From Lachnospiraceae bacterium (GTDB lineage: Bacteria; Bacillota; Clostridia; Lachnospirales; Lachnospiraceae): a stretch of DNA of 37,832 bases. A program made the position numbers and the translations under genes. The stretch spans positions 1 through 37,832 of the forward strand of contig JAGARW010000124.1 in assembly GCA_017621975.1 (NCBI GenBank), given 5' to 3'. Positions 23,929 through 24,989 of this stretch are shown here, in pieces. The notes under the pieces are model-generated. The model was not told the origin of the DNA and ran no database searches. It was given only the letters and a program-made list of their open reading frames with translations. Position 1 is the stretch's first letter, and each line of letters opens with the position of its first letter.

Positions 23929-23957
23929 TTGACAGAAAAAATAAGCGGTGATAGAAT
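23929..23957 (+). promoter_or_regulatory. Strong promoter in front of structured element A
   Basis: A perfect -35 TTGACA (23929-23934), a 17-base spacer and TAGAAT (23952-23957). Transcription should start near 23964, at the very edge of the long inverted repeat. The element would therefore form the leader of the RNA for the 92-residue gene, or an RNA of its own. Confidence 0.8.
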
Positions 23958-23970
23958 AGTACATAAAATA

Positions 23971-24268
23971 CGGACGTGAAAGAGCGCTTTGAGTCCGAAA
24001 ACATCAGATTGCATAAAGTAATTGCCCGCTGTCAGCTTCGAAAAATGGATTTTCTAAAATGTTCCCGAAAGGCTATTTATATTTTACGCAACCGTCCGCA
24101 ATTCGCCGTCCGGGCTCAGCGCGGACTTTTCAGGACATCCATGTCCTGAAATTTCTGGCATACGGCGGAACATCAAGAAAATCTCATTTTCTCTCGCAAT
24201 CGACAGCTTAGCAATTATTTTATGCAATCTGATGCCGGAATCTCCAGCACATTTTTCACCGTCCGCAT
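23971..24268 (+). ncRNA. Structured element A: long hairpin with conserved two-hairpin core
   Basis: The two ends form an imperfect inverted repeat of about 90 bases per arm (for example CATCAGATTGCATAAA near 24003 against its complement near 24233). Inside is a 136-base core (24048-24183) closed by GATTTTCT/AGAAAATC and GTTCC/GGAAC. The core holds hairpin 2 (GTCCGC 24094-24099 with GCGGAC 24121-24126; loop containing ATTCGCC and GGCTCA) and hairpin 3 (TTTCAGGACAT 24128-24138 with ATGTCCTGAAA 24141-24151). The core recurs as element B with compensatory changes. A strong promoter starts transcription at its edge; no terminator follows before the 92-residue gene. Regulatory leader, stand-alone RNA and mobile repeat are all open. 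I recognise no named RNA family. Confidence 0.65.
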
Positions 24269-24295
24269 TAATTTATTAGAAAGGAATGAGAAAGC

Positions 24296-24574
24296 ATGAC
24301 GAAAGAACAGGAAGCTATGCTGACCCGTATCAACAAATATGCAGAAGAAGTAATGGGGGATATCGATCCTCAGAAAACGCCCGTATCGCAGCAGCTTGAG
24401 CAGTTAAAACCGATTATGGAAACGATCGCTTCCGAGCAGAACCGCCCGCTTACGGATATTTTCATTGAATATATGGATCTCGCCAGCGAATTTTCCGTAA
24501 AAAATGCAAAGGATTTTCAAGACGATTATCTTGATTTTGACGCCGTGCAGGGCGACTTGTACAAGCTGCACTAA
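24296..24574 (+). CDS. Small helical hypothetical protein (92 aa)
   Basis: A 92-residue acidic, helix-rich protein ('MTKEQEAMLTRINKYAEEVM', then 'VSQQLEQLKPIMETIASEQ', ending 'FDAVQGDLYKLH'). AAAGGA lies ten bases before the ATG at 24296. It has no signal peptide or membrane segment and belongs to no family I recognise. It is transcribed from the promoter at 23929 through structured element A, so its leader would be about 330 bases long, and it has its own terminator just downstream. Its expression may depend on how the leader folds (inference). Confidence 0.7.
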   Translation: MTKEQEAMLTRINKYAEEVMGDIDPQKTPVSQQLEQLKPIMETIASEQNRPLTDIFIEYMDLASEFSVKNAKDFQDDYLDFDAVQGDLYKLH

Positions 24575-24592
24575 ACATAAAGATTTGAAGCG

Positions 24593-24631
24593 AAAAAAGA
24601 AAGCTGTCCATCAAAAACAGCTTTCTTTTTT
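24593..24631 (+). terminator. Terminator of the 92-residue gene
   Basis: GAAAGCTGT (24599-24607) pairs with ACAGCTTTC (24617-24625), flanked by an A-run and a run of T, allowing use on both strands. It ends nine bases before element B. Confidence 0.85.
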
Positions 24632-24640
24632 ATTTCATAG

Positions 24641-24936
24641 GATTCGGGGGCAAAAGGTTTTATTGAAAACTGGTACTGTCAAATTATATTGACTGTGCCT
24701 GCGCAGGATATTAGGCTTTCTTAGTGTTCCGCCTCCATGCAGCAATTTTCGGACACGATGTCCGAAAAAGGCGAAGTTGAGCCACGGATGGCGAATCTTC
24801 GCCGATTGCGTCAGACTGTTTCAGATTATTGCCGGAACGCTTAGAAAGTCTTATATCCGCAGCCCGGAACAGAAAATAAAATTTTTGTACAATTTGACCA
24901 GGCATCGTAAAAATAAAACCTTTTGACACCCGAATC
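24641..24936 (-). ncRNA. Structured element B: second copy of the long hairpin element
   Basis: A 296-base inverted repeat with ends GATTCGGG and CCCGAATC and arms sharing CAAAAGGTTTTATT. On the minus strand its 137-base core (24850-24714) follows the same order as element A: closing helix, GTTCC/GGAAC, GGCGAAG/CTTCGCC hairpin (24770-24776 with 24797-24803) and TTTTCGGACA/TGTCCGAAAA hairpin (24746-24755 with 24759-24768), with the same ATTCGCC and GGCTCA loop blocks. The outer arms are unlike those of A in sequence. TTCATAG occurs directly on both sides (24634-24640, 24937-24943), like a target duplication. It would be read as the 3' region of serC-serA. Function unknown. Confidence 0.6.
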
Positions 24937-24989
24937 TTCATAGGAAACTACCCCGCTTTGTTTTGTACGAAAGTTGTGTTCCTATGAAG
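24936..24989. repeat. Perfect 11-bp inverted repeat downstream of serA
   Basis: CTTCATAGGAA (24936-24946) and TTCCTATGAAG (24979-24989) are exact complements around a 32-base loop. It begins 13 bases past the serA stop codon (transcription runs leftward), where a terminator is expected, but no T-run follows on either strand. One arm overlaps the direct repeat flanking element B. Confidence 0.6.

Follow-up and report, generated by a model that had tools for sequence, protein, structure and literature searches.

The two strongly folding elements of this locus, here called A and B, raise the question of whether they are conserved as RNA, spread as DNA, or both. The window (the whole stretch of DNA analysed, 37,832 nt from a Lachnospiraceae bacterium) had received a first-pass annotation, in which A and B were taken for two copies of an undescribed structured RNA element, A on the plus strand and B on the minus strand. 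The features of the region are as follows.

23971..24268, minus strand: element A, a diverged copy of TwoAYGGAY whose arms are self-complementary (Rfam match, fold)
24033..24198, minus strand: core of element A, RF01731 TwoAYGGAY (Rfam, 112.8 bits)
24105..24115, minus strand: top of the P3 hairpin of A with GGA (GCCCGGACGGC on the minus strand; read from the sequence)
24136..24143, minus strand: loop of the P2 hairpin of A with GGA (CATGGATG on the minus strand; read from the sequence)
24296..24574, plus strand: 92-aa ORF between A and B, no Pfam match (ORF list, Pfam)
24593..24630, plus strand: hairpin and T-tract downstream of the 92-aa ORF, resembling a terminator by eye (read from the sequence)
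24634..24642, no strand: target-site duplication, left copy, TTCATAGGA (flank comparison at B)
24641..24936, plus strand: element B, a full TwoAYGGAY element overlapping the left duplication by its first two bases (Rfam, fold)
24641..24657, plus strand: left terminal inverted repeat of B, a variant of GATTCGGGTGTCAAAAGG (sequence)
24699..24865, plus strand: core of element B, RF01731 TwoAYGGAY (Rfam, 121.6 bits)
24751..24763, plus strand: top of the P2 hairpin of B, loop CACGATG, without GGA (read from the sequence)
24781..24792, plus strand: top of the P3 hairpin of B with a GGA-bearing loop (GCCACGGATGGC; read from the sequence)
24919..24936, minus strand: right terminal inverted repeat of B, exact GATTCGGGTGTCAAAAGG (repeat scan)
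24937..24945, no strand: target-site duplication, right copy, TTCATAGGA (flank comparison at B)
24937..24987, plus strand: right part of a second palindromic repeat (TTCATAGGAAA...TTCCTATGAAG), interrupted by B (repeat comparison)

Both elements were found at the positions given by the first-pass annotation and both fold strongly. On the strand of the Rfam match, z was −10.0 for A and −9.2 for B against shuffled sequences, and none of 200 shuffles was equally stable in either case. An Rfam 15 scan of the window identified A and B as TwoAYGGAY (RF01731), with model positions 1–168 of 168 matched in both and scores of 112.8 bits (A) and 121.6 bits (B) against a gathering cut-off of 43 with the Rfam covariance model. 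By this match the RNA strand of A is the minus strand and that of B the plus strand, the reverse of what had been proposed. The cores of A and B can be aligned, and their hairpins differ in sequence yet remain paired, which agrees with the earlier description. Loops of the AYGGAY type carry GGA in both hairpins of A and in P3 only of B. Since RF01731 already names both elements, the Rfam scan that had been put forward as a check on their novelty answers it in the negative: A and B are a known RNA motif, not an undescribed RNA family. TwoAYGGAY was rated as probably RNA and probably not cis-regulatory by Weinberg et al. 2010, who gave human gut, gammaproteobacteria and Clostridiales as its sources (PMC2864571), and Rfam 15 lists it with the families of improved structure (PMC11701678).

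The motif is also far from being present in two copies. In the window's genome (G000; 2.68 Mb, 196 contigs, 85% complete) there were 55 RF01731 matches, including those of A and B, and all lay above the cut-off. Ten genomes of the genus including this one were divided equally, with matches in five (55, 55, 17, 8 and 2) and zero in five. RF01731 was found in 9 of 61 genomes in a search of relatives, and in a sample spread evenly over the phylum, scanned with few candidates scored in each genome, 51 of 398 genomes matched at E 0.001 or better and 34 of them lay above the cut-off. A search of some 85,000 species genomes with an exact 17-base terminal repeat gave at least 111 stretches; among the titles listed for these, 67 of 80 were Lachnospiraceae or a genus placed in that family. 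RF01731 lay between the terminal repeats in 15 of 18 loci, chosen for repeats 235–315 bp apart (16 at 295–315) from a larger number of such loci.

Sequence outside the core was examined in 117 copies (G000, 55/55; G001, 17/17; G006, 8/8; G008, 2/2; G017, 6/7; G013, 6/20; G005, 23/55). When folded with 110-base flanks, 18 of them on the complementary strand, 113 copies had 25 pairs or more beyond the Rfam core; of the four that did not, two are truncated at a contig end. The outer arms had been described as unrelated between copies yet self-complementary. This holds for A compared with B and fails among other copies, where arms are common property: the 3′ arm of B is 86–97% identical to the 3′ arms of several other copies, and in the window's genome many arms are common to several copies, one family of them ending in the terminal inverted repeat GATTCGGGTGTCAAAAGG. 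At three mismatches or fewer, GATTCGGGTGTCAAAAGG occurred at 72 places in this genome, compared with 0 for the reversed control. Both terminal repeats were within 3/18 mismatches in 14 of the 55 copies and within a lax limit of 8/18 in 35. The left end of B differs from GATTCGGGTGTCAAAAGG at 6 of 18 positions without gaps and is one base shorter. At the ends of A neither a terminal repeat nor a target duplication was recognised; A is grouped with the transposon copies by its core and fold alone, which weakly suggests that A itself was mobile.

Target duplications were sought in the 35 copies of the window's genome that passed the lax limit, 16 others having no recognisable paired repeats and 4 being truncated at contig ends. 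Perfect duplications of at least 9 bp flanked 6 of these 35 copies, compared with 0.5% of mismatched-flank controls, and a duplication score of 7 or more was reached by 12 of 35, compared with 1.7% of the controls. A clear target duplication was absent from most of the 35 testable copies.

The sequence into which B appears to have been inserted is itself repeated. This second repeat (∼55 bp, TTTCATAGGAAATTACTCC...GTTCCTATGAAA; 24634–24642 joined to 24937–24987 in the window) occurs at 24 places in the same genome (loci L294–L317), and 15 of these were classified by script. Twelve of the 15 were uninterrupted and 77–84% identical to the joined flanks of B; these empty sites are paralogous, and two places, L304 and L311, are near-identical, lie near contig ends and are perhaps one. 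The remaining three, B included, were interrupted by a TwoAYGGAY element or by a derivative without the core. By eye, the ∼55-bp repeat often stands directly behind a hairpin with a T-tract, and several of its copies bear a TwoAYGGAY element at their edge.

Derivatives with the same ends, in which the core was partly or wholly gone, measured 62, 68, 87, 152–153 (four), 161 and 198 bp. In the four core-less derivatives of 152–153 bp (on G000 contigs C151, C174, C67 and C160) the junction, read from the sequences, coincides with a short CAG/GCAG repeat that marks the base of the core. Such junctions suggest deletion of the hairpin during replication.

No transposase was seen by eye among the ORFs around terminal-repeat places in 20 loci of the window's genome, and none was found by Pfam among five long ORFs lying between repeat pairs in the at least 111 stretches, all from draft assemblies, in which absence is weak evidence. 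The five long ORFs had been candidates for the transposase; their Pfam matches were DUF7916, CYTH, a response regulator with ATPase and a transport permease, and one had no match. We suppose that the element, of ∼310 bp, would be moved by a transposase supplied in trans.

The same core was found between other ends. In G005, it is flanked by a quite different terminal repeat (CACGACAAACGCATG...), forming elements of ∼400 bp (loci L098–L117). Duplications of 10–12 bp flanked 3 of 9 G005 copies testable at the lax limit, out of 33 copies tried from G005, G006 and G008, against a null of 0/2000. The arms of these ∼400-bp elements are very long and up to 108/117 identical. The core is thus found with two types of terminal repeat, and its identity was therefore kept while the ends differ. 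In three distant genomes (G339, G363 and G170) the complementarity of the arms equalled or came close to that of shuffled sequences, and the motif is therefore not always within a transposon.

Terminal inverted repeats, 9-bp duplications, copies of the target without an insertion, deletion derivatives and a high but patchy copy number together make the mobility of B and of the family well supported, and we regard it as very likely that the element is mobile. Somewhat less firmly, we take both elements as likely copies of a MITE-like, non-autonomous transposon centred on the TwoAYGGAY structured-RNA motif.

Mobility bears on how the covariation is to be read. Because the arms in the window's genome carry transposon terminal inverted repeats, covariation there can arise at the DNA level, and covariation in palindromic mobile DNA can pass wrongly for selection on RNA. 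If a stem functions as RNA, G·U should exceed A·C on the strand that is transcribed; a DNA palindrome should show the two about equally often. The comparison of core with arms in these terms is a simple check able to separate an RNA signal from a DNA signal within one element. In the outer arms, 237 G·U stood against 212 A·C (95% interval of the fraction 0.49–0.57, copies resampled). In P1 of the core the numbers were 83 and 31 (95% interval 0.64–0.81, copies resampled); one fixed G·T column dominates this total, and counting by genome and column gave 47 versus 39, which was not significant. P2 and P3 were counted on anchored hairpins; alignment-column counts are distorted by gaps from loop length. 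In P2, 13 G·U were found against 1 A·C in 109 of 113 copies, with an anchoring that maximises Watson–Crick plus G·U pairs and so slightly favours G·U. P3 showed no G·U excess (16 versus 24 in 101 of 113 copies). As a control, 19 tRNAs gave 32 G·U and 0 A·C, in a bracket notation that may hide mismatches, and no weight is placed on this control. Except for P3, the core thus inclines to the RNA pattern and the arms to the DNA pattern. Selection on RNA structure, which the first-pass annotation had read from the paired changes, finds support in the G·U excess of P1 and P2 and none in P3 or the outer arms.

Changes in the two ends of a copy matched each other 19 times, compared with a mean of 5.2 and a maximum of 14 in 500 shuffles; 19 of the 55 copies were used, and about 11 of the 19 changes came from L023, L030 and L046, perhaps old subfamilies. 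Such an excess is expected if template switching homogenises the arms or if transposition selects symmetric ends. Template switching is able to create and maintain stems (PMC8794818), and the whole covariation might have come from correction of quasi-palindromes by this route, in a repeat existing purely at the DNA level and having no functional RNA. The near equality of G·U and A·C in the arms, the matching double changes there and the lack of a G·U excess in P3 all fit this explanation. The core fits it less well. Against it stand the preponderance of G·U in P1 and P2, subject to the column count for the former and the anchoring bias for the latter, and also two features of P3. GGA occurs in its loop in 25 of the 26 species-level sequences. 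Its tandem G.A step is retained in 65 of 101 copies, and where the step is missing, paired bases mostly take its place. On balance we think a repeat of DNA alone unlikely, and a core functional as RNA is slightly favoured.

If the core acts as RNA, the GGA loops point to a candidate partner. A 2014 paper matched the TwoAYGGAY loops to CsrA sites and proposed that CsrA binds them (PMC4333381). At the copy level, GGA was counted in the P3 loop of 99/101 copies, a figure given no weight here since the anchoring rewarded GGA. The P2 loop contained GGA in 17 of 26 species-level sequences (16/26 by another reading) and lacked it in 47 of 52 copies of the window's genome, which has a single csrA. CsrA was found in 49 of 51 genomes with TwoAYGGAY in the phylum sample, the exceptions being G241 and G295, compared with 236 of 347 others (Fisher P 4e-6); among the 61 relatives it was found in all 9 genomes with the motif and in 34 of 52 others (P 0.047). 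Flagellin was found in 50 of the 51 and in 272 of the 347 (P 2e-4). Among flagellin-positive genomes alone, CsrA was present in 49 of 50 with the motif and 231 of 272 without (Fisher P 0.010). All these tallies were taken at E 0.001 or better, counted by hand and left uncorrected for relatedness. CsrA as the sole cause of the co-occurrence was discarded, flagellin being associated equally strongly (50/51). The GGA loops and the co-occurrence with CsrA lend partial support to the 2014 proposal, short of proof; binding of CsrA by the core is, in our estimate, possible and tentatively put.

A stand-alone multicopy regulatory RNA, for example one that sequesters CsrA, would account for the same loops and the same co-occurrence. 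In that case the outer stem would be part of the RNA and the transposon features would be incidental. Membership of an Rfam RNA family, the rating in PMC2864571, the match of the loops to CsrA sites (PMC4333381) and the occurrence of the core in distant genomes without clear arms are all in its favour. It leaves the target duplications and common terminal repeats without a role, as well as the target repeat split by B and the core-less derivatives that retain the ends, and the arms lack the G·U preference that an RNA stem should have. We judge it improbable, more so than the purely DNA-level repeat.

The genes around the elements were considered for a role in cis. A sits between a DUF1015 gene and the 92-aa ORF, which are divergent, and B between the 92-aa ORF and a 2-hydroxyacid dehydrogenase gene. 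With a simple ORF heuristic, 46 of the 55 copies in the window's genome overlapped no called ORF by more than ∼100 bases. The 46 copies with both neighbours in this genome were unbiased in orientation (same-sense 14, antisense 14, convergent 9, divergent 9). By the same heuristic G001 gave 3, 6, 6 and 2 in these classes, and G005 gave 3, 6, 1 and 10, a divergent excess with n = 20. A consensus terminator scan of the region returned no terminator-like site, and the hairpin at 24593–24630 was not listed by it. A terminator or attenuator acting in cis between genes, which the intergenic position of most copies and the hairpin with T-tract preceding B might suggest, is very improbable in view of an orientation unbiased in the window's genome, if not in G005, the place of A between divergent genes and the negative terminator scan.

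Among the matches from the relatives search and from the ten genomes of the genus, all ten pairs of copies less than 1 kb apart, A/B included, are head-to-head (minus then plus); the others are on G000:C64, G001:C18, G005:C22/C53/C65/C97/C160 and G017:C33/C47. A scan for an intrinsic promoter of the core RNA gave 3 promoter-like sites, compared with 2.4 expected by shuffling. One of the three, at 23929–23957 (TTGACA, 17, TAGAAT; 11/12), would read A opposite to the Rfam strand, towards the 92-aa ORF.

Returning to the MITE-like transposon with the TwoAYGGAY motif at its centre, we propose the following course of events from these comparisons of sequence. Once transcribed, the core would form a junction bearing two hairpins, at least one of which usually has GGA in its loop. 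Its action as RNA would be the reason why different elements and lineages have retained it; the most plausible such action is to bind a CsrA-type regulator, whether as a decoy or as a portable regulatory site. The arms would stay self-complementary mainly because transposon ends are homogenised at the DNA level. Taken to its furthest extent, TwoAYGGAY might be a portable CsrA-binding RNA module, spread by small clostridial transposons, with each insertion adding a decoy or a control on a neighbouring gene; we offer this as a speculation and hold it more doubtful than the binding itself. FliW is a protein antagonist of CsrA, and such a module, if real, would be a mobile, RNA-based counterpart to it. 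If the core binds CsrA, a genome would carry dozens of such mobile sites for it, and CsrA regulation in gut clostridia would become directly testable.

In the open library that was searched, we met no paper that treats TwoAYGGAY as mobile, and the passages on repeat families in PMC2267715 make no mention of transposition. The setting of a known motif as the core of a MITE-like element was not found described there. Part of an orphan RNA family of 2010 would thereby be explained, as one that travels in these bacteria as the core of a transposable element.

The elements share features with three known systems. Both cores match RF01731 over its full length at more than twice the gathering score, with two hairpins, the tandem G.A step and AYGGAY-type loops, of which B has GGA in P3 only. 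They differ from the family in that its match spans 166–167 bases, whereas here the core lies inside an element of ∼310 bp with terminal inverted repeats and duplications, and most copies in the window's genome have no GGA in one loop. With sRNAs of the CsrB/RsmZ type they have in common the presence of CsrA in the same genomes and, to a varying extent, GGA in hairpin loops; TwoAYGGAY differs in having two hairpins only, often one GGA and predicted binding, and in its many copies within inverted-repeat elements. No CsrB-type RNA is known to be established in these bacteria. As of 2014 the sRNA class was known only from Gammaproteobacteria (PMC4333381).

The third system is that of the small mobile repeats of bacteria that resemble MITEs. 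ERIC, Correia/NEMIS and BOX belong here, and the RU elements of enterobacteria are a further example (PMC2759123). The elements described here are likewise short and mostly intergenic, have inverted ends, target duplications and no long ORF, reach a high and patchy copy number and undergo internal deletions. They differ from these repeats in that the conserved core is a named structured-RNA motif, carried between two types of terminal repeat.
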